DNA from: an uncultured Opitutia bacterium
GTDB lineage: Bacteria; Verrucomicrobiota; Verrucomicrobiia; Opitutales; Opitutaceae
DNA length: 64,000 nt
Reading direction: 5' to 3'
NCBI GenBank assembly: GCA_903840415.1
Contig: CAIMFY010000123.1
Coordinates: 1-64,000 of the forward strand
Positions 29,653 through 46,864 of the stretch are shown piece by piece. The notes beneath the pieces are model-generated. The model was not told where the DNA came from. It did not search any database and saw only the letters and a program-made list of their open reading frames with translations. How positions within the stretch are numbered: position 1 is the stretch's first letter; each line of letters opens with the position of its first letter. A program made the position numbers and the translations under genes.

Positions 29653-31608
29653 ATGAGTCCCGGTCCGCTGCTTTTTGGCGCCGCACTTGGCCAACTCGCC
29701 GGCATGATCGTCAGCCGGCGTGCCCCGCGGTTTTGGCTGCCAGCCACGCTCGCCAGTGCGGTCGCCGCGCTCGGGGCCGCGTTGTTTGTGCTCGGGGGAG
29801 GTGCGGAGTGGCAATGGCGGAGCGATTTTGCGATCGCCGGGGACTCGCTGCATTTGAGGCTCGACGGGCTGAGTGCGTTTTTCCTCGTGCTCGTCGCGGT
29901 CGTCGTCGGTGCCGGCGCGGTTTATTCCCGCGAATATTGGACTGACGCCGCGCACCCGCGCTCCGCCACGGCGGGTCGCTTCTGGTGGAGCGTGCTCGCG
30001 CTAAGCCTCGGAGTCGTGCTCGTTTCGTCGAACGGCCTGCACTTTTTGATCGGCTGGGAATTGTTCACGCTGGCGGCATTTTTTCTGATCACTCTCGATC
30101 GCCAGCGCGGCGAGGTGCGCGCCGCGGGCTGGCTTTATCTCGGCGCGTCGCATGTCGGGACGCTGGCGCTGTTCGCGTTTTTCACCGGAATCGCGGCGCG
30201 GACTGGCGGCTGGGATCTCGGGCCGATGCGCGGGCACGCCGAACTGGCGCCGTTGTTTTGGCTGGCGCTGTTCGGCTTCGGGCTGAAGTCAGGCATGTTT
30301 CCGCTGCACATCTGGCTGCCATCGGCGCACGCCAACGCCCCGAGTCACGTCTCTGCGATCCTGTCGGGCGTCACGATCAAGATAGGAATCTACGGGCTCG
30401 TGCGCTTCACCGGCTGGCTGCCGGTGCCGGCGGCGGCGGGCTGGACGATCGCAGCGGCGGGCGTCGTGAGCGCGGTGTTGGGAGTGGCGTTCGCGCTCGG
30501 GCAACACAATCTCAAGCGGCTGCTCGCCTACCACAGTGTCGAGAACATCGGCATCATTCTTATTGGCGTCGGCTTCGGAGTCGTGGCGGTCGCGCATGGT
30601 TCCGACGCGGCGAGCTGGGGCCGGCTGGCGCTGGCGGGGGCGTTGCTGCATGTTTGGAACCATGGGTTGTTCAAGTCGCTGCTGTTTCTAGGCGCGGGTT
30701 CGGTGCTGCATGCGACTGGCACGCGGGAGATGAGTCGGCTCGGCGGGCTGTGGCGCGCGATGCCGTGGACGGCCACGCTCTTCGCGCTTGGCGCCGTCGC
30801 AATCTCGGGACTGCCGCCGCTCAATGGGTTCGTCAGCGAGTGGCTCGTCTATCTCGGGCTGTTCGACGCCGCACTGACGCGCGGAGCTGCGGCGTGGGCT
30901 GTCGTGCCCGCGGCGATCCTGCTCGGTGTGACGGGCGCGCTCGCGCTTGCATGTTTCGCGAAGGTTTGCGGGGTCGTGTTCCTCGGCGCGCCGCGCAGCG
31001 AAGCGGCGGCCCGCGCCCACGAGTCTGGCCCCGCCATGCGCGGGTCGATGCTCGTCCTTGCCGCGGCATGCGTGGCGATCGGGCTTGCGCCGGTGATGTT
31101 CTGGCCGGCGGTGGCACGCGCCATCGGTGCGTGGGAACCGGCGTGGGTTGACGCCACTCCGCCTGATTCGTTGGCGGTGCTCGGCTGGGCGCACCTTGTC
31201 CTCGCGGCGTTGGCGTTAGCCGGCGCGCTGGTTCTGTGGCGCCGGGCGCACCGGGTCACGGCGCCGCGCGCGCTGACGTGGGACTGTGGTTACGCCGCGC
31301 CCACCGCCCGCATGCAATATACCGCCGGCTCATTCGCCGGCATCGTCACTGAATGGTTCGACTGGATTCTTCGACCGGTGCGGCACGCGGAGCGGCCCGA
31401 GGTGCCCTTTCCAGAACATGCCGGGTGGACATCGCACACACCGGAGACCGTGCTCGAACATATCGTCCATCCGGTTGGCGGCGTGGTGATGCAAATCTCC
31501 GCTGCTACGCGCCGGTTGCAGCACGGGCGGTTGGCGGCGTATCTGTTCTACCTGCTGGTCGGTGTCGCCGCGCTAGGCACGATTGTAGTGATCGATGTTA
31601 GCCAATGA
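29653..31608 (+). CDS. HyfB-like proton-antiporter subunit, copy 1 (Ehr-type complex)
   Basis: The 651-residue membrane protein starts at ATG 29653; the open frame before it reads through the promoter region and is not favoured. It is a Mrp/NuoL-related Proton_antipo_M protein of the hydrogenase-4 HyfB/HycC type. Conserved blocks are SGMFPLHIWLPSAHANAPSHV, KRLLAYHSVENIGIILIG and LPPLNGFVSEWLVYLGLFDA. The C-terminal LTWDCGYAAPTARMQYT is typical of HyfB. It should pump or conduct ions in the inner membrane. It is separated from the rest of the complex by the HTH-EIIA gene and is a paralogue of the gene at 32436. Confidence 0.88.
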   Translation: MSPGPLLFGAALGQLAGMIVSRRAPRFWLPATLASAVAALGAALFVLGGGAEWQWRSDFAIAGDSLHLRLDGLSAFFLVLVAVVVGAGAVYSREYWTDAAHPRSATAGRFWWSVLALSLGVVLVSSNGLHFLIGWELFTLAAFFLITLDRQRGEVRAAGWLYLGASHVGTLALFAFFTGIAARTGGWDLGPMRGHAELAPLFWLALFGFGLKSGMFPLHIWLPSAHANAPSHVSAILSGVTIKIGIYGLVRFTGWLPVPAAAGWTIAAAGVVSAVLGVAFALGQHNLKRLLAYHSVENIGIILIGVGFGVVAVAHGSDAASWGRLALAGALLHVWNHGLFKSLLFLGAGSVLHATGTREMSRLGGLWRAMPWTATLFALGAVAISGLPPLNGFVSEWLVYLGLFDAALTRGAAAWAVVPAAILLGVTGALALACFAKVCGVVFLGAPRSEAAARAHESGPAMRGSMLVLAAACVAIGLAPVMFWPAVARAIGAWEPAWVDATPPDSLAVLGWAHLVLAALALAGALVLWRRAHRVTAPRALTWDCGYAAPTARMQYTAGSFAGIVTEWFDWILRPVRHAERPEVPFPEHAGWTSHTPETVLEHIVHPVGGVVMQISAATRRLQHGRLAAYLFYLLVGVAALGTIVVIDVSQ

Positions 31609-31728
31609 ATGCCCAGACACGACGTAACGGTCTCGTTAATCTGGTGGCAGGAACTCACTCCGGTGTAGGCGCACGGTCGTGTGTTTGACGCCAAGCCTGA
31701 TTTCCTGAACGCTGATTTCTAACCCGTT

Positions 31729-32439
31729 ATGTATCTCAATCTCATCCAGATTGCCGAGTCGTTCGGTGTGTCGGGAAAAGTCATCGAAGACTGGATCCGC
31801 ACCGAAGGCCTGCCGCACATTGAGGAGCGCAGCCGGCTGCTGTTCGACCGCACGCAGGTGGCGGACTGGGCGGCGGCGCGCGGGCTCACGGCCCAAGTCG
31901 GATTTCTGGCCAATACCAATCCCGCGTTTGCGACCGGCTGGCGGCTTGAGGCGCTATTGCGCGCGGGCCGGATCTGGCGCGATGTGCCCGCCGCTGAAGT
32001 GCCGGCGACGTTCGCGCGCATCGTCGCCGCGCTGCCGGGCACGACCCCGTCGCTCCGGCAGCTTGTAACGCTCCGCCTCCGCGCGCCGGGCGGCGTGACG
32101 ATGGCACCGGTCGGCGGCGGCTATGCGCTGCCGCATCCGAGTGCGCGGGTCGCGCTAGGCCGCGACGCCGGTGTCGTCGGGCTGCTGTTGCTGCGAGAAC
32201 CTATGGTGTTGCCCGAGCCGCCGCCGGACGACGTGCCGCTCACCCGGCTGTTTTTCTTCATTGCGCCGTCGCCGCGGGCGCACCTCGACCTGCTCGGTCG
32301 GCTCAGCCGCTTGCTCTCACGGGGAACGATCCGCGACTTGCTCGCGCGGGGCGCCGATGACCAGGAGATCTTCCTGGCCGTGGGAGCTTTCGACGAAGCG
32401 ACGCCGGCCGCAGCCGCCCTCCCGGAGGATAACGCATGA
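31729..32439 (+). CDS. HTH (excisionase-like) - PTS EIIA(Ntr)-like fusion protein
   Basis: The 236-residue protein has two parts. Residues 1-55 form an excisionase/MerR-like winged helix (IQIAESFGVSGKVIEDWIR, then LLFDRTQVADWAA). Residues 85-225 resemble PtsN-type EIIA: GGGYALPHPSARV with His136 at the phospho-acceptor site, then PLTRLFFFIAPSPRAHLDLL and LLSRGTIRDLLARGADD. The PtsN family receives phosphate from NPr and regulates transport and nitrogen or potassium metabolism. Here the DNA-binding part suggests a transcription regulator or sensor of PTS state, placed between the two HyfB copies. Its stop overlaps the next ATG by 4 bases. What it controls is inference; the neighbouring complex is the first candidate. 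Confidence 0.75.
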   Translation: MYLNLIQIAESFGVSGKVIEDWIRTEGLPHIEERSRLLFDRTQVADWAAARGLTAQVGFLANTNPAFATGWRLEALLRAGRIWRDVPAAEVPATFARIVAALPGTTPSLRQLVTLRLRAPGGVTMAPVGGGYALPHPSARVALGRDAGVVGLLLLREPMVLPEPPPDDVPLTRLFFFIAPSPRAHLDLLGRLSRLLSRGTIRDLLARGADDQEIFLAVGAFDEATPAAAALPEDNA

Positions 32440-34385
32440 CGCCGGGTCCGCTGCTGCTCGGCGCCGCGGCGGGCCTCGCGGCCGGCGTGGTGGCCGGCCG
32501 TTGGAATGCGCGGGTCTGGCTCGCCCTCACGCTCGTTAGCACTGCCGCCGCGCTGGGTGCAGCCGGCTCGCTGCTGCTCGGGGGTGCCATCTGGGAATTT
32601 GTAAGCACGTTTCCGATTGCCGGACAGCCGCTGCACTTGCGGCTCGATGCGGTCAGTGCGCTTTTTCTGGCGCTAGTGGCGATCGTGGGCGGCGCCGGTT
32701 CCGTCTATGCGCACGAGTATTGGAGTAACCAGGACTATCCGCAGTCGGCGCCGCGTGGCCGCATGTGGTGGAGCGCATTGTTGCTGAGCATGGGCGGAGT
32801 GCTGCTGTCGTGGAACGGCCTGCACTTTCTTATCGCGTGGGAGCTGTTCACGGTGGCGGCGTTTTTCCTCATCACACTCGAGCGGCAGCGGCGCGACGTG
32901 CGCGCCGCCGGCTGGCTTTACCTCTCGGCGTCGCATCTGGGCACGATGTGCCTGTTCGCGTTTTTTGCCGCACTCGCTGCTCGCACCGGCAGTTGGGAAC
33001 TCGGGCCGATGCGAGAGCGCACTGAACTCGCGCCGCTTTTCTGGCTCGCGTTGGTCGGCTTCGGGCTGAAAGCCGGCATGTTTCCCCTGCACATCTGGCT
33101 GCCCTCCGCGCATGCCAACGCCCCGAGCCACGTCTCCGCCATCATGTCGGGCGTCACCATCAAGCTCGGCATCTACGGCCTGCTGCGCACTACGGGCTGG
33201 CTGCCGCTGCCGGTGGCGGCTCCTTGGATACTGATTGGTCTCGGCGCCATCACCGCGCTCTTCGGCATCGCTTTCGCTTTCGCGCAGAGCGATCTGAAAC
33301 GGCTGCTCGCCTATTGTTCGGTCGAAAACATCGGCATCATCCTGATCGGGCTCGGCGGCGCGCTGCTGGCCGTCGCGGACGGCCACGCCGTCTGGGGCCG
33401 GCTGTTGCTGGCCGGGGCGTTGTTTCACGTCTGGAATCACGGGCTGTTCAAGTCGCTGCTCTTCTTCGGTGCCGGCTCGGTGCTGCATGCCACGGGGACG
33501 CGCGAAATGAGCCGGCTCGGGGGTTTGTGGCGCGCGATGCCGTGGACCGCCGCGCTCTTCGCGCTCGGCGCGGCTGCCATCTCCGGCCTGCCGCCGCTCA
33601 ACGGCTTCATCAGCGAATGGCTCGTCTATCTCGGGCTCTTCGATGCCGTCACGGGCCGCAGCCCGGCTGCGTGGGCGGCGATGCCCGCTGCTATTATCCT
33701 CGGAATCACTGGGGCGCTGGCGCTGGCGACCTTCGTCAAAGCGGGTGCCATGATCTTTCTCGGCGCGCCGCGCACGGCCGCGGCCCGCCATGCCCACGAA
33801 TGCGGTCCGTGGATGCGCGGGCCGATGCTGGTCCTCGCGATTCTGTGCGTCGCGATAGCGCTCGCGCCGGTCGTCTTCTGGCCGCTGGTCGCCCGCGCTT
33901 CGGGCGCGTGGCAACCGATGTGGACGGAAATGCCGGTGCCCGCCTCGCTCTTCACGCTCGGCAGCCTGCAGATCGCGCTCGCTGGGCTGGCGCTGGCCGC
34001 CGGTCTGACGCTCTGGTGGCGGGCGCGAGGCGCCGGCGCCCCGCGTCACCTCACCTGGGATTGCGCCTACGCCGCCCCTTCCGCCCGTATGCAATATTCC
34101 AGCGGCTCCTTCGCTGGCATCGCCGGCGGCTGGTTCGCGTGGCTCCTCCAACCGCAGCGGCAACTGCGGCGGCCGCGCGGACTTTTCCCCGCGATTGCTA
34201 CCCGCGTGGAACGCGTGCCGGAAACGGTGTTAGAGCTGATATTCACGCCGGTCGCTACCGTCATCCTACAAGTGTCCACCGCCGTGCGTCGACTGCAGCA
34301 CGGGCGGTTGCAATACTACATCGCCTACGTCGTCGTCGCTCTGGCCGGACTCGGATCCATCGTGGTGTTGGGAGGCCGTTCATGA
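32436..34385 (+). CDS. HyfB-like proton-antiporter subunit, copy 2 (Ehr-type complex)
   Basis: The 649-residue membrane protein is a close paralogue of the gene at 29653, sharing long blocks such as AGMFPLHIWLPSAHANAPSH, RLLAYCSVENIGIILIGLGG and GTREMSRLGGLWRAMPWTA. It belongs to the NuoL-related HyfB/HycC family of ion-pumping subunits. Its ATG overlaps the stop of the HTH-EIIA gene and its stop overlaps the ATG of the HyfC-like gene, so translation is coupled through the whole run. Which of the two copies assembles with the core complex cannot be decided from sequence. Confidence 0.9.
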   Translation: MTPGPLLLGAAAGLAAGVVAGRWNARVWLALTLVSTAAALGAAGSLLLGGAIWEFVSTFPIAGQPLHLRLDAVSALFLALVAIVGGAGSVYAHEYWSNQDYPQSAPRGRMWWSALLLSMGGVLLSWNGLHFLIAWELFTVAAFFLITLERQRRDVRAAGWLYLSASHLGTMCLFAFFAALAARTGSWELGPMRERTELAPLFWLALVGFGLKAGMFPLHIWLPSAHANAPSHVSAIMSGVTIKLGIYGLLRTTGWLPLPVAAPWILIGLGAITALFGIAFAFAQSDLKRLLAYCSVENIGIILIGLGGALLAVADGHAVWGRLLLAGALFHVWNHGLFKSLLFFGAGSVLHATGTREMSRLGGLWRAMPWTAALFALGAAAISGLPPLNGFISEWLVYLGLFDAVTGRSPAAWAAMPAAIILGITGALALATFVKAGAMIFLGAPRTAAARHAHECGPWMRGPMLVLAILCVAIALAPVVFWPLVARASGAWQPMWTEMPVPASLFTLGSLQIALAGLALAAGLTLWWRARGAGAPRHLTWDCAYAAPSARMQYSSGSFAGIAGGWFAWLLQPQRQLRRPRGLFPAIATRVERVPETVLELIFTPVATVILQVSTAVRRLQHGRLQYYIAYVVVALAGLGSIVVLGGRS

Positions 34386-35302
34386 ACGCGTTTGCGATCG
34401 CGTTCGTCGAATTCGTCGTGCGACTGGCCGGCTGGCTGGTGCTGGCGCCGTTGCTGCCGGGCATCATCAACAAAGTGAAAGCGTGGGTCGGCGGCCGCCG
34501 CGGGCCGCCCGTGCTTCAGCTTTACTACGATCTCGCGCGGCTGTGGCAGAAGGGCGTCGTGCTGAGCACGTTGGTCTCGCCCGGTTTTGTCGCGGGCCCG
34601 GCGGTCGCGTGGGTCGCCGTGCTCGGCGCGGCGCTGCTCTTGCCACTCGGACCGATCGGCGCGAGCCTGAGTTTTCACGGCGATGTGCTGCTCCTCATTT
34701 ACCTGCTCGCGCTGGCGCGGTTTTGCATGGCGTGGGCCGCGATGGAAACGGGGTCGGCGTTCGAAGGCATGGGCGCCGCGCGCGAGGTGAGTTATGCCGT
34801 GCTCGCCGAGGCCGCGCTTATCACCGCGGTGCTCGCGCTCAGCGTGCACAGCGGCAGTGTGACCCTCGTCACAATGCTGACGCCCGCCGCCGGCGCCGGC
34901 GCCGTGCTGCTCGCTGCCGGACTCTTCACCGTGCTGTTGGCGGAAAATTGTCGCGTGCCTTTTGACGATCCCAGCACCCATCTCGAACTCACGATGATTC
35001 ACGAAGTAATGATCCTCGATCACAGCGGGCCGCCGCTTGCGGCGATTCTGCACGGCGCGTCGATGAAACTGCTGCTGTTCGCCGTGCTGCTCGTCGAAGC
35101 CGTGCTCCCGCTCGGCGGACTCTCGCGCCTTGCGGCCGCTGGCGCGCTGGCCGCTGGCGTGCTCGTCGTCACAGTCGGCGTCGGGCTGGTCGAATCTTTG
35201 ATGGCGCGGCTGGCCTTCCGCCGCGTGCCGCTGCTGCTCACGACGGCGTTTTTGCTCTGCCTGTTTGCGCTGCTCGTCGCGTGGAAAGGCGGTGACGCGT
35301 GA
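34382..35302 (+). CDS. HyfC/NuoH-like membrane subunit (Ehr-type complex)
   Basis: The 306-residue protein starts at ATG 34382, overlapping the previous stop. It is the NuoH-type subunit that links the soluble arm to the membrane arm. Hallmarks are KVKAWVGGRRGPPVLQLYYD near residue 31, the YLLALARFCMAWAAMETG block near 100, an AENCRVPFDDPSTHLELTMI loop near 185 with conserved acidic residues, and a C-terminal helix. About eight hydrophobic segments can be seen. The much longer open frame that begins near 33224 is a shadow of the preceding gene. Confidence 0.9.
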   Translation: MNAFAIAFVEFVVRLAGWLVLAPLLPGIINKVKAWVGGRRGPPVLQLYYDLARLWQKGVVLSTLVSPGFVAGPAVAWVAVLGAALLLPLGPIGASLSFHGDVLLLIYLLALARFCMAWAAMETGSAFEGMGAAREVSYAVLAEAALITAVLALSVHSGSVTLVTMLTPAAGAGAVLLAAGLFTVLLAENCRVPFDDPSTHLELTMIHEVMILDHSGPPLAAILHGASMKLLLFAVLLVEAVLPLGGLSRLAAAGALAAGVLVVTVGVGLVESLMARLAFRRVPLLLTTAFLLCLFALLVAWKGGDA

Positions 35303-35940
35303 ACTCCAACGTGAATCTCCTCGTCGGTTTGGCGATCGGCCTGAACCTGCTTGCGCTCGGGAGCAGCCGGTTGCCGTCGGTCATCGGTGCGGTTGCTGTG
35401 CAGGGCATGGCGATCGGCCTGATGCCGCTGCTGCTCGAATCTGATTTCAACTGGATCGTCGCGCTCGTCGCGGTCGGCACCATGGCCGTGAAGGGATTCG
35501 TGATTCCGGTCCTGCTGCGCCGGGCGATGCGCACCGCCAACATCGAGCGCGAAGTCGATCCGTCGATCGGTTTCGTGCCTTCGCTGCTGCTCGGCGCGGG
35601 CGGCACGATTGCCGCCGTCGCGCTGGCTCGCGCGCTGCCGCTCCTGCCCGAACACGCCGGCTCGCTGCTCGTGCCGGGCTCGTTCGCTTCGGTGCTGACG
35701 GGTTTCGTGCTCCTGATTGGCCGCTCGAAAGCCATCGCGCAGGTCTGCGGCTACCTGATTCTGGAAAACGGCATTTATTTATTCGGATTGCTCCTCATCC
35801 GCACCACGCCGCTGCTTGTCGAGGCGGGCATCCTGCTCGATCTCACCGTCGGCGTGTTCGTCATCGGCATCATCGTTGACCGCATTCAGCGTGCGTTCGA
35901 TTCGCTCGACACGAGCAAACTCACCGTGCTGCGCGAATGA
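35299..35940 (+). CDS. HyfE-like membrane subunit (Ehr-type complex)
   Basis: The 213-residue protein starts at GTG 35299, overlapping the previous stop. It resembles hydrogenase-4 component E, a NuoK-related protein with about seven hydrophobic helices. Typical stretches are GAVAVQGMAIGLMPLLLES near residue 30, VKGFVIPVLLRRAMR near 63 and CGYLILENGIYLFGLLLI near 150, where the membrane-embedded Glu of NuoK/HyfE is present. It probably contributes to the ion path. The next ATG overlaps its stop. Confidence 0.88.
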   Translation: MNSNVNLLVGLAIGLNLLALGSSRLPSVIGAVAVQGMAIGLMPLLLESDFNWIVALVAVGTMAVKGFVIPVLLRRAMRTANIEREVDPSIGFVPSLLLGAGGTIAAVALARALPLLPEHAGSLLVPGSFASVLTGFVLLIGRSKAIAQVCGYLILENGIYLFGLLLIRTTPLLVEAGILLDLTVGVFVIGIIVDRIQRAFDSLDTSKLTVLRE

Positions 35941-37379
35941 AATCACTGCTGCTCATCATCCTGCCTCTCGTGGGCGCCGCGCTCGCAGCCCTCTGGCGGA
36001 GCGATCGCACGCGGCCGTGGTGGCTCCCGGCGATCGGGTTGGTGCATGTCGTGCTTTCGTTCTGGCTTTTCCTCGTGCCGCCAGTCGTCGCGCCCGATGC
36101 TTGGCTCGGCTTCGACCCGCTCGCGCGTGCCGTGCTGCCGGCGGTTTCGCTGCTGTTCCTCGTTTGCGCCGCCTACGCGGTGCCTTATCTCCAGATGCAT
36201 GCCGAGCGCTCGAACCGCGTGTTCGTGGCCGCGCTGCTCGCGATGCTCGGCCTGCTCAGCGCCGGCCATCAAGCGCGGCACCTCAGCCTGCTCTGGATCG
36301 CGACCGAGGGTCTGACGCTAGCTGCCGTGCCGCTGCTGCATTTCAACGCCACGCCGCGCGCCCTGGAAGCGACTTGGAAATATCTTTTGGTCGGCGGCAC
36401 CGGTATCGCGCTCTCGCTGCTAGGATCCTTTTTCCTTGGCTACGCTTCGCTGCATGGTGGCGGTGGCGGCGACCTCACTTTCGTGGCTCTCGCGAGTCAG
36501 GGTGCCGCGCTTTCGCGACCGTGGGTGCTTGCCGCATGGGTGTTGTTGCTCGTGGGCTACGGCACCAAAATGGGCCTCGCGCCCATGCACACATGGAAAC
36601 CCGACGCTTACGGTGAGGCGTCCGGCATTGTTGGTGCCCTGCTCGCCGGTGGCGTCACGACCGTGGCATTTACCGCCGTGCTGCGGGTGCGCATGGTCGT
36701 CGCTGCGGCCGGTGCGGGCGCGGTGGCGGATCGCACCCTGCTGGTCATCGGGTTGTTTTCGATGCTGGTCGCGGCCTTGTTTCTCCTCGGCACGCGCGAC
36801 TTCAAGCGGATGCTCGCCTACTCGAGCGTCGAGCACATGGGCATCCTCGCGGTCGGCGCCGCGCTCGGTGCCGCGGGCGCGTGGGCCGCGCTGTTTCACG
36901 TCTGGAGCAATAGTCTCACCAAGGGCGCGCTCTTTCTCAGCGCGGGCAACATCCGCCGTGCTGCTGGCGGGCGCACCATGGACGAAGTTCGCGGCATGGC
37001 GACCATCACGCCGCACTCGGCCGCCATCTTCGTCGCCGGCATGTTTGCCGTCACTGCGCTGCCACCGTTCGGACCGTTTTTCAGCGAACTCGGAATCGTG
37101 CGCGCGGCCTTCAGCGCGGGGCGGCCCGGCTCCGCGGCGATGTTTCTCGGCTGCCTGTTGTTCGTGTTCTTCGGCCTGACGCGGCTCGTCTTTGCCATCG
37201 TCGATGGCCGACCGCGCGCGGCGGCACGTGTATCGGGTAGGCTTTTTCCCGAAACGCTGAGCGTCATCCTGCCGCCGCTCGTGCTGATGGGTTTCTCGCT
37301 CTGGCTCGGCCTTGCCACGCCCGATGTCCTGCGCGAAGCGTGGGCCGGCGCCGTGGCACAACTCTACCCGGCACGATGA
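35937..37379 (+). CDS. HyfF-like antiporter subunit (Ehr-type complex)
   Basis: The 480-residue membrane protein is a NuoN/NuoL-type Proton_antipo_M protein like HyfF. Blocks include TKMGLAPMHTWKPDAYGEAS near residue 203, FKRMLAYSSVEHMGILAVG near 288 and LPPFGPFFSELGIVRAAF near 380. It starts with ATG 35937 in an ATGA overlap and its stop overlaps the start of the large subunit. With the two HyfB copies the locus encodes three antiporter-like subunits, an unusually large membrane arm for this family. Confidence 0.9.
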   Translation: MKSLLLIILPLVGAALAALWRSDRTRPWWLPAIGLVHVVLSFWLFLVPPVVAPDAWLGFDPLARAVLPAVSLLFLVCAAYAVPYLQMHAERSNRVFVAALLAMLGLLSAGHQARHLSLLWIATEGLTLAAVPLLHFNATPRALEATWKYLLVGGTGIALSLLGSFFLGYASLHGGGGGDLTFVALASQGAALSRPWVLAAWVLLLVGYGTKMGLAPMHTWKPDAYGEASGIVGALLAGGVTTVAFTAVLRVRMVVAAAGAGAVADRTLLVIGLFSMLVAALFLLGTRDFKRMLAYSSVEHMGILAVGAALGAAGAWAALFHVWSNSLTKGALFLSAGNIRRAAGGRTMDEVRGMATITPHSAAIFVAGMFAVTALPPFGPFFSELGIVRAAFSAGRPGSAAMFLGCLLFVFFGLTRLVFAIVDGRPRAAARVSGRLFPETLSVILPPLVLMGFSLWLGLATPDVLREAWAGAVAQLYPAR

Positions 37380-38863
37380 GTAGCGCGACTTCCTTCGCCC
37401 TGCTGGCCAACGCCACGAGTCTGCCGTGGGCCGACCTGCCGGAATGGCCCGTCGCCGACTTCGTGCGCGCCACCGCTGCCGAACTCGACCGCGGCGCCCG
37501 GCTGTGCGCGTGGTTTGGCGTGCCCGAAGGCGCCGGCACGCGACTCGTCGCGATCGTCGCCTTCGACTCTGACAACACGCTCGCCGCCGCACGCAGCACT
37601 CCCTTTTCCGGCAGTTATCCCGCGCTCACCGCCACGCACTCGCAGGCGCACTTGTTCGAACGCGAAGTCTGGGAGCAGCACGCGCTCACGCCGATCGGCC
37701 ACCATTGGCTCAAGCCCGTGCGCCGCACCGACGCCGACGGCACGGCGCCCGCCAACGGCGAGTTTTTCCGCGTCGACGGCCGCGAGATTCACGAAGTCGC
37801 CGTCGGCCCCGTGCACGCCGGGATCATCGAGCCGGGTCATTTCCGTTTCCAATGCGCCGGCGAAGAAGTGCTCCACCTCGAGATCGCGCTCGGCTACCAG
37901 CACCGCGGCGCGGAGACCGCGCTCGCCGGTGGACCGCACCGCGCGACCCTCAGCCAGATTGAGACCGTCGCCGGCGACACAACCATCGGCCACGCCACCG
38001 CCTACGCCGGCGTGCTCGAAGCGCTCGCCGGAGTGGAGGCCCCGTTGCGTGCACAATGGCTTCGCGCCATCGCCCTCGAACTGGAGCGACTCGCCAACCA
38101 CACCGGCGATCTCGGCGCACTCGCCAATGACGTGGCCTTTATCCCGACCTCCGCCGCGTGCGGAAAAATTCGCGGCGATTTTCTCAACCTCACCGCGCTC
38201 CTCTGCGGCAACCGCTTCGGCCGCGGCTTGGTGCGCCCTGGCGGCTGTCACCACGATCTCGATGCCGAGCGCACGGCGCGTTTGCTCGAGCGCTTGCGCA
38301 CCGCCGTCGCCGACACCGAACAGGCGGTCGGCTGGCTGTGGGACGCCGCCACCGTGCGCGGCCGCTTCGAGAATGTCGGCACCGTCTTTCCCCAACAGGC
38401 GACCGAGCTTGGCCTCGTTGGCCTGGCCGCTCGCGCCTGCGGCCTCGTGCGCGATGTGCGCTACGATCACCCCGCCGGCTGGTATCGCCTCGCGCAAGCG
38501 CCGGTCGCCGTCTGGCCCGGCGGTGATGTTTACGCCAGGGCCCGGGTGCGCTGGCTCGAACTCCAGCGCTCCGGCCAGTTTCTGCTCGAACAACTCGCCA
38601 CTCCTCCCGACGGCCCGATCGCCGAACCAGTCGCCGCCCCGGCGCCCGACACCCTCGCCGTCGCCCTCGTCGAAGGCTGGCGCGGCGAAATCTGCCACGT
38701 CGCGCTCACCGACTCCGCGGGAAAATTCCGCCGCTACAAGATCACCGACCCGTCGTTCCACAACTGGACCGGCCTCGCCCTCGCGCTCCGCGGCCAGGCC
38801 ATTTCTGATTTCCCGATCTGCAACAAGAGCTTCAACCTCTCTTACTGCGGCTTCGATCTCTGA
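37376..38863 (+). CDS. HycE/NuoCD-like large subunit lacking [NiFe] ligands (Ehr-type)
   Basis: The 495-residue protein starts at ATG 37376 (ATGA overlap). Residues 1-125 resemble the NuoC/30-kDa part and residues 140-495 the NuoD/hydrogenase large-subunit part, fused as in HycE and HyfG. In true group 4 hydrogenases two CxxC motifs bind the [NiFe] site. Here the N-terminal motif region reads ETVAGDTTIGHATAY (residues 196-210) with no Cys, and the C-terminal DPCxxC reads DPSFHNW (458-464). The last line NKSFNLSYCGFDL is typical of this cysteine-less class. The protein therefore cannot bind the hydrogenase metal centre; its electron partner or substrate is unknown. No hyp maturation genes or maturation protease are nearby. 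Confidence 0.9.
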   Translation: MSSATSFALLANATSLPWADLPEWPVADFVRATAAELDRGARLCAWFGVPEGAGTRLVAIVAFDSDNTLAAARSTPFSGSYPALTATHSQAHLFEREVWEQHALTPIGHHWLKPVRRTDADGTAPANGEFFRVDGREIHEVAVGPVHAGIIEPGHFRFQCAGEEVLHLEIALGYQHRGAETALAGGPHRATLSQIETVAGDTTIGHATAYAGVLEALAGVEAPLRAQWLRAIALELERLANHTGDLGALANDVAFIPTSAACGKIRGDFLNLTALLCGNRFGRGLVRPGGCHHDLDAERTARLLERLRTAVADTEQAVGWLWDAATVRGRFENVGTVFPQQATELGLVGLAARACGLVRDVRYDHPAGWYRLAQAPVAVWPGGDVYARARVRWLELQRSGQFLLEQLATPPDGPIAEPVAAPAPDTLAVALVEGWRGEICHVALTDSAGKFRRYKITDPSFHNWTGLALALRGQAISDFPICNKSFNLSYCGFDL

Positions 38864-38868
38864 CCACC

Positions 38869-39693
38869 ATGTTCGTCCTCGACACGCTCACTCATCGGTT
38901 GAAACGCGGCTGCGAGACGATGGATTATCCGGCCGGCCCGGCGCCCGCGCTGCCCGATCGCCACGGCGGCGCACTGCGCGTCGATGCCGCGAAATGCGCC
39001 GATGGCTGCAACGCTTGCGTCCCCGTCTGCCCGACTGAAGCCATCGTCCGCCCCGCAGGCAAATCCGTCGCGCTCGATCTCGGCCGCTGCATTTTCTGTG
39101 CGGCCTGCGTGGAGGTCTGCCCGGCGAAAGCGATCTCCCAGACGGGCGACCACCGGATGGCCGTGCGTCGCCGCGAAGACCTTGTGCTCGGTGCGGCCGG
39201 CGTCGAAGAACTCAGGCTCGCCGCCGCACTCGACGAGAAACTCCGAAAACTCTTCGGCCGCTCGCTGCGACTTCGGCAGGTCAGTGCCGGCGGCTGCGCC
39301 GCCTGCGAGGCTGACGTCAACGTCCTCGGCACCATCGGCTGGGACCTTGGCCGCTTCGGTATCCAGTTCGTCGCCTCGCCGCGCCATGCCGACGGCCTCC
39401 TCATCACCGGCCCGGTCTCGCGCAATATGGAACTCGCCTTGCGCAAAACCTGGGCCGCCGTGCCCGAGCCAAAAATTGTCATCGCCGTCGGCGCGTGTGC
39501 AATTGCCGGCGGCCCGTTCGTCGGTCGACCGGAAGTCCGCGACGGCGCTGCGGCAATAGTGCCGGTCGATCTCTACATTCCGGGCTGCCCGCCGCATCCA
39601 CTCACGATTCTCGACGGCCTGCTCCGGCTTCTCGGCCGGCTGGAAACTGGCGACCGCGCGCCTGTCGCTGCGCCCGTTACTCCCGCCACGTAA
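38869..39693 (+). CDS. ferredoxin-small subunit fusion (HycF/HycG- or NuoI/NuoB-like)
   Basis: The 274-residue protein combines a two-cluster ferredoxin domain with a NuoB/hydrogenase small-subunit domain. The ferredoxin cysteines are 43, 47, 50, 54 (CADGCNACVPVC, with three residues instead of two in the first gap) and 74, 77, 80, 84 (CIFCAACVEVC). The proximal-cluster ligands are all present: Cys142 and 145 in GGCAACE, Cys209 in GACAIAGG and Cys239 in PGCPPHP. It should carry electrons to or from the large subunit. It follows that gene by 5 bases and overlaps the convergent ruvC end by 17 bases. Confidence 0.88.
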   Translation: MFVLDTLTHRLKRGCETMDYPAGPAPALPDRHGGALRVDAAKCADGCNACVPVCPTEAIVRPAGKSVALDLGRCIFCAACVEVCPAKAISQTGDHRMAVRRREDLVLGAAGVEELRLAAALDEKLRKLFGRSLRLRQVSAGGCAACEADVNVLGTIGWDLGRFGIQFVASPRHADGLLITGPVSRNMELALRKTWAAVPEPKIVIAVGACAIAGGPFVGRPEVRDGAAAIVPVDLYIPGCPPHPLTILDGLLRLLGRLETGDRAPVAAPVTPAT

Positions 39694-42210: not shown

Positions 42211-44025
42211 TCAGCGCCGCTCCGGCGGCTTCGTTTCGCCGAGAAATTTCCCGGCGCGGGCGACAGCTTCCGCCAAATCGCGATGCGCGGCTTCGAGTTG
42301 GAGCTTTTGTGCTTGGAGTGGCGCCTCGTCGTCCGAGCTCTCGGGCTCGGGCGGCAGGCCGAGAATATCGCGGGCGCGGGCGAGGGCGGCCACGATGTGC
42401 GGGCACACGTTTTCCTCACCGAGGCGGTCAATAAATCCCGAGTTGGTCATCACGGCCAGCGGCTGCGTGTGCGGCGCACTCAGGATGAGATGCTTGCCCT
42501 TGGCGCGGAGTTTGGCGTGCAAATCTTCCAGCGCCTGCAGGCCCGTGGCGTCGATCGCGAGCACCTTGCGGATGCGCAGGATCAGCACGTCGGGCTCCTG
42601 CTTGGCGCGCTTGAGTTCGTCGTCAAGTTTGTCGACGACGCCGAAGAAAAAAGCGCCAAACACGCGGAACACTAGCACGCCCGGCGGAATCACGTGGCCG
42701 ACCAGCGAGTGATGGGAGCCCTCCGTGTCGGTGCGCTCGTCGACGGCGGTGATCTGGGAGGTTTCGGAGATGCGTTTCACCATCAGCAATGCGGCCAGCA
42801 CTACGCCGACTTCGACTGCGACAGTGAGGTCGGCGAGCACGGTGAGCGTAAAGGTGGCGAGGAACACCGAAGAGTCGCTGAGCGGCCAGCGGCTGAGGCG
42901 GGCGAATTGCTTCCACGACACCATACGGTAGGCCGCCACGATCAGAATCGCACTCAGCGAAACGAGCGGGATGTGCCCCGCCAGCGGCGCAGCGGCGAGG
43001 AGCAGAAGCAACAGCAACGCCGAGTGCACGAGGCCGGCGACCGGGGTGTGGGCGCCGGCGCGGACGTTGGCCACGGTGCGCGCCACGGCACCGGTGACCG
43101 GAATGCACCCGAAAAGCGGAGACACGAGATTGGCGATGCCGTCGCCGAGGAGTTCCTGGTTTGAGTCGTGGCGCTCGTCGAGCATGCCGTCAGTGACCAC
43201 GGCGCAGAGCAAAGACTGCATGGCCACGAGCAACGCGATCGTGAACGCGGGCTGGACGAGTTCGCGCACCAGTGGCCAGTCCGCGTGCGGCAGATGCAGC
43301 GACGGCAGGCTGCGTGAGATTTCACCGAATTGGGAGCCGATGGTGGCGATTTGCCACCGGTCGTGAAAACCGAATAACGCCGCCGCGGCCGTCGCGCAGA
43401 CGAGGCCGACGACCGAGCCGGGCACGAACCGAGAAAGTTTGGTCGGCCAAAGTCCGATCAGAGCGATCGAGGCGAGGCCGAGGGTGACGGTCGGCCAGTG
43501 AATCGTGCCGAGATGCCCTACGAGCATCGTGATCTTGCCGGTGAAATCGACCGGCGCTTTTTCCAAGTTTAGCCCGAAGAAACTTTTGATCTGCGACGCC
43601 AGGATCAGAATCGCGATGCCTTTGGTGAACGCGCGTGACACCGGGTAGGGGATAAACCGGATGACCGATCCCATTCGCGCGAAACCCATGATGCACAGGA
43701 TCGCCCCCGCCATCATCGTGCACAGAAACAGGCCGTTGGCGTCGAAACGCTGGAGCACGCTGTAGGTGATGACGATGAACGCGCCCGTCGGCCCGCCGAT
43801 CTGGACCCGCGATCCGCCCAACGCGGCGATCAATCCGCCGCCGATGATGGCGGTGAACAAACCCTGTTCCGGCGTCACGCCTGCGGCGATGGCAAATGCG
43901 ATCGAGAGCGGAAACGCGAGGATCGTCGCGTTCAGTCCGGCGAAGAAATCACCCCGGAAATCTTTTGCCGTGTAACCACGCAGTGCATCGATGATCCGGG
44001 GTCGGAAATGAATCGAGAAGTTCAT
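42211..44025 (-). CDS. SulP-family anion transporter with STAS domain
   Basis: The 604-residue protein starts at ATG 44025 (reverse). Residues 10-440 form the transporter core with LNATILAFPLSIAFAIAAG, GPTGAFIVITYSVLQRF, DSNQELLGDGIANLVSPLFG and PVTGAVARTVANVRAG. A STAS domain follows (VLILRIRKVLAIDATGLQAL near 475). The last 50 residues are charged and probably coiled (EAPLQAQKLQLEAAHRDL). SulP proteins carry sulfate, bicarbonate or other anions; the substrate here cannot be told. The longer frame back to 44211 lacks family similarity. The 178 bases before it show nothing clear. Confidence 0.9.
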   Translation of the reverse strand: MNFSIHFRPRIIDALRGYTAKDFRGDFFAGLNATILAFPLSIAFAIAAGVTPEQGLFTAIIGGGLIAALGGSRVQIGGPTGAFIVITYSVLQRFDANGLFLCTMMAGAILCIMGFARMGSVIRFIPYPVSRAFTKGIAILILASQIKSFFGLNLEKAPVDFTGKITMLVGHLGTIHWPTVTLGLASIALIGLWPTKLSRFVPGSVVGLVCATAAAALFGFHDRWQIATIGSQFGEISRSLPSLHLPHADWPLVRELVQPAFTIALLVAMQSLLCAVVTDGMLDERHDSNQELLGDGIANLVSPLFGCIPVTGAVARTVANVRAGAHTPVAGLVHSALLLLLLLAAAPLAGHIPLVSLSAILIVAAYRMVSWKQFARLSRWPLSDSSVFLATFTLTVLADLTVAVEVGVVLAALLMVKRISETSQITAVDERTDTEGSHHSLVGHVIPPGVLVFRVFGAFFFGVVDKLDDELKRAKQEPDVLILRIRKVLAIDATGLQALEDLHAKLRAKGKHLILSAPHTQPLAVMTNSGFIDRLGEENVCPHIVAALARARDILGLPPEPESSDDEAPLQAQKLQLEAAHRDLAEAVARAGKFLGETKPPERR

Positions 44026-44203
44026 GCGGATGGCCCGGAGCAAAGCGCCAAGCGTGCCGACCACGGCGGCGGTCGAAATTCGGACTGATGCGAGCACTGA
44101 CGAGAGAAGTCCATGAAAAGGAAAAGAGGCCGCAGACCATAAAAATCCACGCCCACAGCGCAAGCTTGCTGCCACGTCCACGCCGCAGTCCTCTCGTCGC
44201 AAA

Positions 44204-46864
44204 CTACCCAAGCACCGCTTTTACTACCTTGCCGAGATCCGTCACGCGGTAAGGTTTGGTGAGGTAGCCGCAGAAACCCATGTCGAGATACTTGCGCGCC
44301 ATGTCGTCGTTGTCGTAACCGCTCGACACGATCGCGCGCACCTCGGGATCGAGGGCCTTCAGTGCGTGGAAACACTCCTCGCCGCCCATGCCGCCGACGA
44401 TCGTGAGATCCATGATGACGGCGTCGTAGGGCCGGCCGATATTCTGGTAACGCTTGTAGAGAACGATCGCTTCCTCGCCTTTCGTCGCGAGGTCGAATTT
44501 GTAGCCAAGGCTTTCCAGCATTGTCCCTGTTAGGGTGGAAATCTTCGGATCGTCGTCCATGAACAGGACCCGGCCGGAGGCGAACCGCAGTGACGGCGCG
44601 CGGCGCGCCTGCACCGCGACGGGTTGGTCGGCCTTCGGCAAATAGACGGTGAACGCAGTGCCTTTGCCGACCTCGGTGTCGAGCCCGAGTTGGCCGCCAT
44701 GTTTGCGCACGATCGAGAGCACGGTCGCGAGGCCGAGTCCGGTGCCGTGTTTCTTCGTGGTGAAAAACGGATCGAAGATTTTTTCGACGTGCTCGGGCTT
44801 GATGCCGCTGCCGTTGTCGCGCACCTCAAACTCGACGTAATCGCCGGCCGGGAGTGCGGGCACTTGATCGGCGGCGAGGGTGAGGTTGGCGGCGCGAATC
44901 TGCAGGCGCGGCCGGTGCGGCTCGGGGGGCATCGCCTGCAGCGCGTTGACGATGAGGTTTTGAAACACCTGCAGAATTTGCGCTCGATCGACCATGACCG
45001 GATCGATGGTGTCGGGCACGTCCAGCGCGATCTCGGCGGTCGCGGCGGCGGCGGCGATCTTGATCGAATCTTCGAGGATTTCCTTCGAGGCGCAGACGAT
45101 CTGCGTGCCAGTGCCGCCTTTCGCGAAGGCGAGGAGTTGTTTCGTTAGGCCTTTCGCGGTGAGACAGGCTTTTTCGGCGTCGCCGAGCGCGGAGGGATCG
45201 CGGTTGTCTTTCGCGAGCGAGACGGCGCCGAGGATGGTGGTGAGGAGATTGTTGAAATCGTGCGCAATGCCGCCGGCGAGGAGGCCGAGCGACTCGAAAC
45301 GGTTGGCTTTCACGAGCTCCTCGCGCGTGAGCGTCATCTCGTCGGGGTTGCGGAAAATGATCACGACGCCGCGCGGTTTGTTGTCGGTGCCGAACACGGC
45401 CCGCGCGGTCCACACGATCGGCGTGGTCGCTTCGCCCTCGATCGGCGGAAGGAGCGCGTCTTCGCTGATGAGTGGGAGCGGCTGGTCGGCGTTGAGCGCG
45501 CGCTCGACAGGATCATCGCCGGGGCGGTGACTCTGGCGGTTGACGAGGCGGAAGATGTCGCCGATGGCCTGCGCGCGGATTTTGTCGAGCGGGAGGCCGA
45601 TGACTTTGGCGGCGGCAGCGTTCGCAAAAATGATCTTACCGCGGGCGTCGGCGACGAGGACGGATTCCGCGAGCGCGCCAAACGCTTCGGCAACGAGCGC
45701 GGCCGGCAGCGACCCGTCATCGCCGGCGCTGGACAGATCGGCGGGGAGCGCGACGGCGAAGCCCACGACGCGCGCAAGTTCGCGCCGACGCGTGACAGTG
45801 CGGTGCGCGCCGAGCAGCACGGACACGGGTTTGCCGTCCCGACCGCGGAGCTTCACCACTTCGACGAAGGCAGTCTGACCCAGCGCGCGGTTGAGCCACC
45901 AGGCTTCGACGCCGCCGGCCGCTTCCTCAGCGGGGAGGGTGGCAGCAAACGAAGCGGCCTCGGGGGCGAGCGCGCCTGCCTCGTGGCCTAGCAGTTGCTC
46001 GAACGCGCTGGAGAACCAAAAAATCTTCCCGGCAAAATCGAGTTCGAAGGCCGCAAGCGGTCCGGCTCCGCTGAGATCCTGGAGGCGCGCGTCGTTGGCG
46101 AGCGATTCCTCCTCGAGTTGTTTGCGCTCGGTGATGTCGAGGTGCAGGCCGACGACTCGCTCGAGTTCGCCGGGCGCGGAGAGAATTTGGAGGCCGATGC
46201 ACTGAATCCAGTTCCAGTGGCCGCGCCGGTGCTTCATCCGAAACTCGACGTTAAATGGACGCGAACCGGCGGCGATCCGCTTGCCGATTTTATCGGGCGC
46301 GGCGGCGGAATCGTCGGGATGGATGAGTTGGCTCCATGTGTCGAGGGTGTCGGGCAGTTCGGCGTCGACGTAGCCGAGGATTTTTTTCCACGCCGGTGAA
46401 AAGTGCACGCGGCCCGCGGCGAGTTGGAGGTCGAAGAATCCGGCGGCCCCGTGGTCGGCGAGCAGCTTGAAACCCTGCGTGGTGTCGTCGCCCGTGGCGG
46501 TGGGTGCGGCCATCGTGCCGGCAGGCGGCTGAATCGTCGCGAGATAACCCGAGATGGGGCCGAGGTTTTTTTCGAGCCGCACGCTCACATCGCGCGGGTC
46601 GCCGGCTCGCGGCTGGGTTTGGAGCAGCGTCGTGCGGTTCAGCGCGCTGTCGAGGAGGACTTCCCATTGAGCTTCGAGAAACTCCGGATCGCTGGAGGTG
46701 ATCTCGAAGGCAAAGAGCGCAGCGAAGGCTTCACCGATTAGTCCGGATTCGTCGATCTGCCAGAGCGCGTGGGCGGAGGCGTTCGCGGCCGTGATTTTTC
46801 CCGTAGCGTCGAGCACAAGCACGGCGCACGCGGCGGGATCGTGGCTGGGAGTAACTGGGCTCAA
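44204..46864 (-). CDS. cytoplasmic multi-PAS hybrid histidine kinase
   Basis: The 886-residue protein starts at TTG 46862-46864 (reverse), one base after the ferrochelatase stop. It has no membrane helix. In order: about four PAS-type domains (residues 1-120, 130-250, 265-375, 400-515), a HisKA domain with the phospho-His in GGIAHDFNNLL near 540, an HATPase domain (NLIVNALQA, then DNGSGI, KHGTGLGLATVLSIV) and a receiver domain at 765-886. The receiver has DDDPK, the acceptor Asp in AVIMDLTI and the closing KPYR. This is the PAS-HK-REC layout of a hybrid sensor. The signal is unknown; haem or redox sensing would fit the ferrochelatase partner but no haem motif is visible. Confidence 0.88.
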   Translation of the reverse strand: MSPVTPSHDPAACAVLVLDATGKITAANASAHALWQIDESGLIGEAFAALFAFEITSSDPEFLEAQWEVLLDSALNRTTLLQTQPRAGDPRDVSVRLEKNLGPISGYLATIQPPAGTMAAPTATGDDTTQGFKLLADHGAAGFFDLQLAAGRVHFSPAWKKILGYVDAELPDTLDTWSQLIHPDDSAAAPDKIGKRIAAGSRPFNVEFRMKHRRGHWNWIQCIGLQILSAPGELERVVGLHLDITERKQLEEESLANDARLQDLSGAGPLAAFELDFAGKIFWFSSAFEQLLGHEAGALAPEAASFAATLPAEEAAGGVEAWWLNRALGQTAFVEVVKLRGRDGKPVSVLLGAHRTVTRRRELARVVGFAVALPADLSSAGDDGSLPAALVAEAFGALAESVLVADARGKIIFANAAAAKVIGLPLDKIRAQAIGDIFRLVNRQSHRPGDDPVERALNADQPLPLISEDALLPPIEGEATTPIVWTARAVFGTDNKPRGVVIIFRNPDEMTLTREELVKANRFESLGLLAGGIAHDFNNLLTTILGAVSLAKDNRDPSALGDAEKACLTAKGLTKQLLAFAKGGTGTQIVCASKEILEDSIKIAAAAATAEIALDVPDTIDPVMVDRAQILQVFQNLIVNALQAMPPEPHRPRLQIRAANLTLAADQVPALPAGDYVEFEVRDNGSGIKPEHVEKIFDPFFTTKKHGTGLGLATVLSIVRKHGGQLGLDTEVGKGTAFTVYLPKADQPVAVQARRAPSLRFASGRVLFMDDDPKISTLTGTMLESLGYKFDLATKGEEAIVLYKRYQNIGRPYDAVIMDLTIVGGMGGEECFHALKALDPEVRAIVSSGYDNDDMARKYLDMGFCGYLTKPYRVTDLGKVVKAVLG

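Follow-up and report, generated by a model that had tools for sequence, protein, structure and literature searches.

The Ehr operon

The window analysed here is a stretch of 64,000 nucleotides from an uncultured Opitutia bacterium of the family Opitutaceae (assembly GCA_903840415.1, contig CAIMFY010000123.1, positions 1 to 64,000). Positions 29653-39693 carry what is, as judged from sequence, a complete operon for an energy-converting hydrogenase-related (Ehr) complex. Eight genes are packed tightly on the + strand, with neighbours that overlap or nearly touch in the open reading frame (ORF) reading; the longest intergenic gap is 120 bases and precedes the second gene. The order is HyfB1, a helix-turn-helix (HTH)/EIIA protein, HyfB2, NuoH, HyfE, HyfF, the large subunit and a ferredoxin-small subunit fusion. 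Pfam and NCBIfam are concordant on these identities:

29653..31608, + strand: HyfB/EhrA-type antiporter-like subunit 1 (HyfB1, P0001); Proton_antipo_M 1.3e-46; NCBIfam hydrogenase 4 subunit B 1.2e-154, under the curated cut-off; pump residues WE, LK and IK retained
31729..32439, + strand: HTH_17 plus EIIA-Ntr-like regulator of the phosphotransferase system (PTS) type (P0002); HTH_17 at residues 2-51, EIIA at about 107-215
32436..34385, + strand: HyfB/EhrA-type antiporter-like subunit 2 (HyfB2, P0003); Proton_antipo_M 6.3e-47
34382..35302, + strand: NuoH/HyfC-like membrane anchor (P0004); NADHdh 7.5e-25
35299..35940, + strand: HyfE-like (NuoK-related) membrane subunit (P0005); GTG start; hydrogenase 4 membrane subunit 1.7e-19, under cut-off
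35937..37379, + strand: HyfF-like antiporter-type subunit (P0006); Proton_antipo_M 2.7e-44; hydrogenase 4 subunit F 2.7e-66, under cut-off
37376..38863, + strand: NuoCD/HycE-like large subunit EhrL without NiFe ligand (P0007); HycE 7.7e-41 (PDB sequence match)
38869..39693, + strand: fusion of a 2[4Fe-4S] ferredoxin and a NuoB-like small subunit, EhrS (P0008); Oxidored_q6 6.5e-26, Fer4 domains

The HyfB2 start codon overlaps the stop of the EIIA/HTH gene (ATGA), and the ATG of P0007 overlaps the HyfF stop. P0008 also matches MbhJ (3.4e-30, PDB sequences). The whole ehrA-D, L, S gene set is thus found in order, with EhrA in two copies. A preliminary description of this DNA had recognised eight genes for a membrane arm, a large subunit and a small subunit. 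The locus is real, but seven of its genes encode Ehr subunits and the eighth (31729-32439) encodes the HTH plus EIIA_2-like protein, which is no recognised component of the complex and had been overlooked; HyfB had been rightly assigned to the membrane arm but is present twice.

The Ehr class is known from several reports (PMC6349859, PMC7304191, PMC10284858, PMC10432482, PMC6688271, PMC7894505), which are drawn on here in excerpt: ehrABCDLS in Methylacidiphilum (PMC6688271), GSU0739-45 with EhrA-1 in Geobacter (PMC7894505), and further occurrences in comammox bacteria, ammonia-oxidizing archaea, the Candidate Phyla Radiation (CPR) and Riflemargulisbacteria (PMC10284858, PMC10432482, PMC7304191, PMC6349859). 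The name EhrA-1 hints at two EhrA copies in Geobacter as well. Missing ligands or a missing CxxC motif are stated in four of these excerpts (PMC6349859, PMC7304191, PMC10284858, PMC10432482); that of PMC7304191, on CPR Ehr, mentions large-subunit cysteines only. Redox-coupled ion translocation is suspected in PMC6349859, and in the published excerpts the function of Ehr is called unknown or suspected. Ehr complexes lacking nickel ligands are therefore already published and the operon of the window belongs to a known class, which it resembles in subunit set, NiFe ligand loss and tree position of the large subunit. It differs from the excerpted accounts by the EIIA/HTH gene, the ferredoxin-small subunit fusion, a nearby SulP gene and a sister clade that lacks the proximal cluster. 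The interest here lies in these variant features and partner genes, not in the nickel-ligand loss itself. No link of Ehr to EIIA/PTS, SulP or proximal-cluster loss was found in the titles, abstract openings or excerpts of the open-access papers retrieved, a search that leaves the subscription literature mostly uncovered and such absence unproven.

The grouping is not due to chance: of 38 genomes searched, among them that of the window, six others carry the gene cluster. Large-subunit orthologs of at least 75% identity occur in 7 of the 38, again counting the window's own. Variants exist among these genomes (G, C and L numbers are our handles for genomes, contigs and loci): HyfB is single in G006 and in G004, the latter also containing an inserted second Ehr, and in G015 the cluster is split over contigs. 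In a tree of the HyfB paralogues, the HyfB2 copies form one clade (support 100/100) and the HyfB1 copies another (89/93), with the G004 copy outside both; recent gene conversion between HyfB1 and HyfB2 was considered and, given these separate clades, finds no support. Near the pump helices, HyfB1 reads LAYHSVEN and HyfB2 LAYC/SSVEN throughout the family copies compared; by this motif the single HyfB of G004 is HyfB1-like and that of G006 HyfB2-like.

Some genomes combine several Ehr complexes. In G004 (L024:1835-17100) they are interleaved as ABCD-[A'B'C'D'L'S']-LS, and G486 (L234:114-11240) shows a partly seen equivalent; by gene order, G087 (L192) has ABCDL-[S'A'B'C'D'L']-S. Tandem pairs lie at L106/L236, L193 and L173.

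A large subunit without the nickel-iron site

The preliminary description had stated that the large subunit has no NiFe cysteines. The alignment bears this out: C241, C244, C531 and C534 of HycE correspond to A198, T201, S488 and G491 of P0007, i.e., all four [NiFe] ligands are gone (P0007 numbering omits the initiator Met; add 1). The N-terminal ligand motif had been located correctly, but DPSFHNW, proposed as the C-terminal one, starts about 30 residues upstream of the actual place, NLSYCG, where a single Cys sits one position off the ligand site. This ligand alignment is supported by the large subunit of Peptococcaceae bacterium BRH_c4a (L166), because it fits the same frame with all four cysteines, in ERICGAC and NKSFELCYAC.

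Across 63 Ehr rows, Cys occurs at none of the four ligand positions, one gap apart. H146, E151 and G199 are invariant, D200 is present in 60 rows, and N482, K483, S484, S488 and Y489 are present in 62, the remaining row having a gap. A wider alignment of 124 non-NuoD rows (two of them cut) contains a single Cys, at the first position, in L051 and L175, and all four only in L166 and the hydrogenase of L108. P0007 stops 3 residues past the former ligand motif, counted from G491; HycE, at 569 aa, extends 35 residues beyond C534. The two CxxC pairs and the protease-removed C-terminal extension of group 4 [NiFe] hydrogenases are thus absent from P0007.

Other parts of the pocket are retained. The proton-transfer glutamate of group 4 hydrogenases (E21 of MbhL) is reported, in the excerpted PMC7684303, to be lost in the membrane-bound sulfane sulfur reductase (MBS) and complex I; via the alignment with HycE, E151 of P0007 is its predicted equivalent. 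The positions of H38 and Y87 of Nqo4, quinone residues according to the same excerpt, are occupied by Ile and G199, the latter Gly in all 63 Ehr rows. The AlphaFold2 (AF2) model of P0007 has a mean predicted local distance difference test score (pLDDT) of 89.0, with values <50 at 116-131, 144-152 and 491-494; H146, E151 and G491 fall in these low-pLDDT stretches, and the model does not place them. It superposes on HycE (7z0s_E) with a VIA Z of 41.6 and a root-mean-square deviation of 2.6 over 482 aligned residues, and on complex I 49 kDa subunits with Z of 36.0-37.5. No chains of MBS or of the membrane-bound hydrogenase (MBH) appear among the best 50 structure matches listed, which excludes nothing.

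With E. coli hydrogenases 3 and 4 (HycE/HyfG, group 4a), the complex has in common HyfB, NuoH/HyfC, HyfE and HyfF, the full-length large-subunit fold and the conserved E151 and H154; in contrast, it has no NiFe ligands, no C-terminal extension and no hyc/hyp maturation genes in the operon. Neither hyp, maturation protease nor NuoEFG genes were detected by Pfam in the operon or the ten neighbouring ORFs (26259-49958). The earlier remark that no hyp or protease gene lies nearby stands, but the genome does have HypD, on another contig (G000:C17). HypD occurs in 7 of the 38 genomes, yet in just two of the seven with an Ehr ortholog, the window's and G004; it was not found in the other five, one of which, G015, is 81% complete.

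Family placement and distribution

A careful 73-row tree separates the 63 ligand-less Ehr rows, together with L166 and the long-branched L195, from HycE/HyfG and NuoD (support 100/99); the non-Ehr side consists of E. coli HycE and HyfG and of NuoD from E. coli and from the genome's family. The large subunit of the window sits deep among the ligand-less rows, which include Geobacter sp. UBA698 and Nitrospirae. The preliminary description had favoured the Ehr class over a hydrogenase and had named a tree with NuoD, HycE and Ehr large subunits as the check; the window falls within Ehr in that tree, not inside the active hydrogenases. Membership of the Ehr class, as opposed to an active hydrogenase, is thus supported by sequence comparison. 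A single loss of the NiFe ligands in Ehr appears likely, but the placement of L166, which bears on this, is unstable: it branches first (90/94) in the 73-row tree and beside L118 (80) in a quick tree that 126 of 134 rows entered. With its Ehr-like large subunit and four NiFe cysteines, L166 may represent a hydrogenase sister or ancestor type of Ehr.

Ehr is widespread: 117 of 387 genomes in the phylum contain a relative at E <= 1e-45, and a scan of bacterial and archaeal genomes yields at least 560 relatives. Among the matches listed, the named loci closest to the window belong to Opitutaceae (L106) and other Verrucomicrobiota. Two genomes of family f36, G099 and G148, are assigned to a class other than that of the window but have large subunits 79-80% identical to that of the window and nested among sequences of family f1, which suggests horizontal transfer of the operon.

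A second Ehr type (L026, L027, L024:13779-14615, L096-L103, L106) keeps the proximal cluster, while its ferredoxin cluster I cysteines are missing and the cluster II set is apparently retained.

The small subunit and the loss of the proximal cluster

P0008 holds all 12 cluster cysteines, eight of the ferredoxin type and four proximal (C143, C146, C210, C240); the motif tables agree here with the preliminary description. The first ferredoxin motif (residues 43-54) reads CxxxCxxCxxxCP, its first gap being one residue over the usual, as in many window-type relatives.

In a search of 200 family genomes, 39 gave a match at E <= 1e-40, some of these being of the second Ehr type. Among 31 small subunits of the window's type (30 loci and G004; G431 and G521, two overlapping pieces in different frames, are uncounted), 22, the window's included, keep all four proximal ligands, and nine have lost two to four of them, with Trp at the fourth position in all nine. 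Two ligands remain in G491, an intermediate, one each in G446 and G508, and none in the other six. In a tree built without the ligand columns, which L224 enters by its small subunit only, these nine group as a single clade (99/98).

The clade is under purifying selection: dN/dS (Nei-Gojobori) is 0.142 over 36 pairs of cluster-less genes versus 0.166 over 78 pairs from 13 keepers, and internal stops are absent from the cluster-less genes. The small subunit of G004 departs at exactly 4 of 70 invariant columns, namely those of the proximal-cluster cysteines, where it has S, E, E and W. The columns were defined on 27 chosen rows, window copy included, omitting incomplete rows and L052, L057, L060 and L062, whose inclusion gives fewer than 70. 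In a leave-one-out comparison, the other 27 rows depart at 0-3 invariant columns, never at the proximal cysteines. The four omitted loci, also of the window's type, have degenerate ferredoxin motifs and intact proximal cysteines.

The pocket is largely preserved in the cluster-less members. All nine retain the eight ferredoxin cysteines; EPGHF, GD and NKS..LSYCG of the large subunit are kept, with L228 and L231 altered inside the last, and T201 is variable, as it also is in some keepers. In G004, E195Q and T201A at the pocket are two of three large-subunit changes at invariant columns. Six of the nine show the full eight-gene order; of the others, G004 and G491 carry a single HyfB, and the operon of G486 is visible in part. 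A second clade (L115, L117, L122, L134, L163, L192), spanning CPR, Thermoleophilia and Verrucomicrobiota, has lost 3-4 proximal ligands and kept the pump residues; the large subunits of these six loci group at 100/100, L192 being paired by gene order.

The EIIA/HTH protein

P0002 scores slightly under the Pfam cut-offs for both of its domains, PTS_EIIA_2 (1.3e-5; 25.7 bits, cut-off 27) and HTH_17 (1e-4), and matches PtsN in sequence at 7.6e-5; the corresponding protein of L096 scores 5.2e-22 for EIIA. The AF2 model (mean pLDDT 89.8) retrieves PtsN in Foldseek at 2.7e-6, with weaker matches, from 2.6e-4, to SLC4 anion exchangers in their cytosolic domains. In Pfam, a single clan comprises both EIIA_2 and the band 3 cytosolic domain. 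Across 54 aligned EIIA/HTH rows, H136 is invariant and H185 nearly so, making H136 the candidate phospho-histidine and H185 a second His. Model and alignment together point to an EIIA fold with a conserved, putatively phosphorylatable His. P0002 shares with PtsN/EIIA-Ntr this fold and the invariant active-site His; unlike PtsN, it is fused to an excisionase/MerR-type HTH and encoded within the Ehr operon.

EIIA/HTH orthologs of at least 56% identity occur in exactly the seven of 38 genomes with an Ehr ortholog, G008 and G010 giving only weak matches of 27-29%. In the phylum, the family is found at E <= 1e-15 in 60 of 387 genomes, 51 of which also have the large subunit (52 counting G227, on a separate contig). 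Forty-three of 70 EIIA/HTH matches precede a large-subunit gene on the same strand by 4.9-11.1 kb, about the space that one or two HyfB genes and the remaining membrane genes would occupy; this count used 123 of 131 large-subunit matches, the last eight being weak or partial. At most mapped loci the EIIA gene immediately precedes a HyfB gene (e.g., L021, L022, L182, L184, L186, L187, L193). EI and HPr genes are present in all seven Ehr-ortholog genomes, the window's included, and the EIIA/HTH protein may tie expression or activity of the complex to the PTS phosphorylation state.

Seven loci (L176-L181 and L183, from G042, G063, G122, G102, G227, G168 and G126) have an EIIA/HTH gene and no Ehr gene in the stretch fetched; because some members have no Ehr alongside, the family is broader than Ehr. 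In the Ehr operon of G483, which is cluster-less, a second, weaker EIIA-like gene (L239:9932-10615) separates HyfF from the large subunit.

The SulP transporter

A possible partner of the complex is encoded downstream of the operon:

42211..44211, - strand: SulP/SLC26-type anion transporter (P0009); best PDB match 6ki1, 6.3e-47

SulP genes lie beside Ehr at 9 of 20 mapped family loci (the window, L021-L027 and L234-L245; some flanks are short, and L237 and L238 come from one genome). They are directly upstream on the same strand at L024, L025, L026, L027, L241 and L245; in the window, L240 and L242, the SulP gene is on the opposite strand, some 2-2.5 kb downstream. Compared with the SulP proteins of L245, L241 and L025, that of the window shows 76%, 71% and 65% identity, respectively, and its gene is probably the same as the upstream SulP of these relatives, relocated; the SulP proteins of L240 and L242 differ from it (26% identity). 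At the named loci, a SulP gene ends within 1.5 kb upstream of Ehr in 6 of the 53 with enough flank, belonging to Acidobacteria (L099, L102) and Methylococcales (L140, L144, L149, L174). Identity between the Methylococcales proteins and that of the window is only about 25%, which suggests that their SulP-Ehr association arose independently. P0009 stays below cut-off with each of the DauA, sulP and BicA models.

A probable ferredoxin-fed pump and its alternatives

The most likely reading, to which we give a probability of roughly 0.55, is that the Ehr complex of the window is a ferredoxin-fed ion pump. Reduced ferredoxin would donate electrons via the two ferredoxin clusters and then the proximal cluster to the large-subunit pocket. 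There the former NiFe site would have been rebuilt as a polar site (D200, T201, N482, K483, S488, Y489), retaining the proton-transfer glutamate E151 and H146, and some small acceptor would be reduced. Loop movements might then be relayed via NuoH to HyfB1, HyfB2 and HyfF, moving H+ or Na+, while the EIIA/HTH protein would couple operon expression or complex activity to the PTS phosphorylation state. This reading is favoured by the position among the ligand-less Ehr rows, the conserved pocket residues, the complete set of FeS cysteines and the absence of HypD from five of seven Ehr-ortholog genomes, and the regulatory part by the co-occurrence of EIIA/HTH with Ehr. The pump residues are conserved in the membrane subunits of the window. 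POR_N, a ferredoxin source, has matches in all seven Ehr-ortholog genomes, which does not discriminate because 21 of the 31 other genomes carry them too.

Several observations weigh against this reading. No acceptor can be named, because the complex I quinone residues are absent. Nor did Pfam detect any partner dehydrogenase in the operon or the ten neighbouring ORFs, alanine dehydrogenase excepted. EIIA matches occur at only 5 of 80 named loci: L096 and L106 (Verrucomicrobiota), L147 and L168 (Nitrospirae) and L173 (Geobacter, a divergent EIIA-HyfB pair). The loss of proximal ligands under selection, moreover, makes electron delivery to the pocket dispensable in relatives: since selected sisters lost these ligands, electron transfer to the large subunit cannot be indispensable in all members. 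Either the cluster-less complexes act differently, or the main task of the pocket was never electron acceptance.

This last option underlies the strongest alternative, itself unlikely, namely that Ehr performs no redox chemistry at the pocket: the large and small subunits would form a ligand-binding gate through which the antiporter arm is driven or regulated, and the clusters would be inherited and optional. Anions, for instance bicarbonate or a dicarboxylate, are candidate ligands. Such a gate would account for the two clades that shed proximal ligands, the first of them under constraint and, in G004, with changes at the ligand cysteines and nowhere else among the invariant columns of the small subunit, and for the retention of pocket and pump residues in these forms. 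The adjoining SulP gene and the resemblance of the EIIA model to SLC4 bicarbonate exchanger cytosolic domains go in the same direction; the SulP link and the EIIA protein together make an anion- or ion-homeostasis role worth considering. On the other hand, the window and the other keepers retain all four proximal ligands, the ferredoxin cysteines preserved in all nine cluster-less proteins suggest that electrons still matter, and with E195Q and T201A the pocket of G004 may be altered. The SulP substrate is also left unassigned by the three models, and the SLC4 resemblance reflects a shared fold only. In its fuller form, in which Ehr is leaving redox chemistry and a non-redox ligand (e.g., bicarbonate or the SulP anion) gates the ion pump or antiporter under PTS-EIIA control, the proposal is slightly more tentative still.

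A ferredoxin:quinone oxidoreductase, a stripped-down complex I binding quinone in an altered way, is also doubtful and comes next in likelihood. It is suggested by the fold match of the large subunit to the 49 kDa subunit, the hydrophobic chamber common to MBH, MBS and complex I (excerpt of PMC7684303) and the two NuoD homologs also present in the window's genome. Complex I (NuoB/C/D/H/K/L/M/N) indeed resembles Ehr in fold and pumping arm; in contrast, the Ehr operon has no NADH module, and its large subunit is separate in the tree. The Ile and Gly at the Nqo4 H38 and Y87 positions argue against the proposal, and a canonical complex I quinone site is rejected as the residues do not fit.

Far less probable is sulfane sulfur reduction at the proximal cluster. 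Pyrococcus MBS is likewise a ferredoxin-fed derivative without NiFe and reduces at its cluster, but it retains two of four large-subunit Cys, lacks the E21 equivalent and has a cluster loop three residues shorter (excerpt of PMC7684303). The window is the opposite on each count, with zero ligand Cys, E151 kept and an MBH-like CxxC spacing in the small-subunit loop; cluster-less relatives would be incapable of such chemistry at that site, and an MBS-type site is rejected. Finally, an active [NiFe] hydrogenase whose cysteines vanished through sequencing or assembly error has next to no probability: hydrogenases are the closest relatives outside Ehr in the tree, but the ligand comparison over 63 rows and the scarcity of HypD in Ehr-bearing genomes lead to its rejection.

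The ferredoxin-fed pump thus remains the preferred reading, and the operon offers three handles on Ehr function: the co-encoded EIIA/HTH regulator, the linked anion transporter and the natural variants without proximal cluster. The latter amount to a natural experiment on a wider question, namely whether electrons must always reach the last cluster of the chain for coupling to take place in the complex I superfamily; if the non-redox reading were true, Ehr would be a complex I relative needing no electron at the coupling site.

Other genes of the flanks and of the genome

A Pfam scan covered 290 of the 369 ORFs flanking the named loci, the other 79 being mostly short and a few over 1200 aa. 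SulP (8 of 290) and common regulators appear; neither formate dehydrogenase nor NuoE/F features in the lists of the 25 commonest families, drawn up for each batch, and carbonic anhydrase is not seen in these lists, which omit rare families.

The two NuoD homologs of the window's genome lie on other contigs, G000:C104 (L028) and G000:C118. The C104 homolog carries NuoD motifs of the complex I type, with several antiporter-like genes next to it, and the C118 copy matches at 25%.

Adjoining the SulP gene of the window, a PAS-histidine kinase-receiver hybrid is encoded at 44204-46864 on the - strand. Orthologues lie beside Ehr in G007 (L022:16618-19278, 67% identical) and at L106 (1567-4269, 74%); the hybrid could be an Ehr-linked sensor, or its position could reflect mere synteny.

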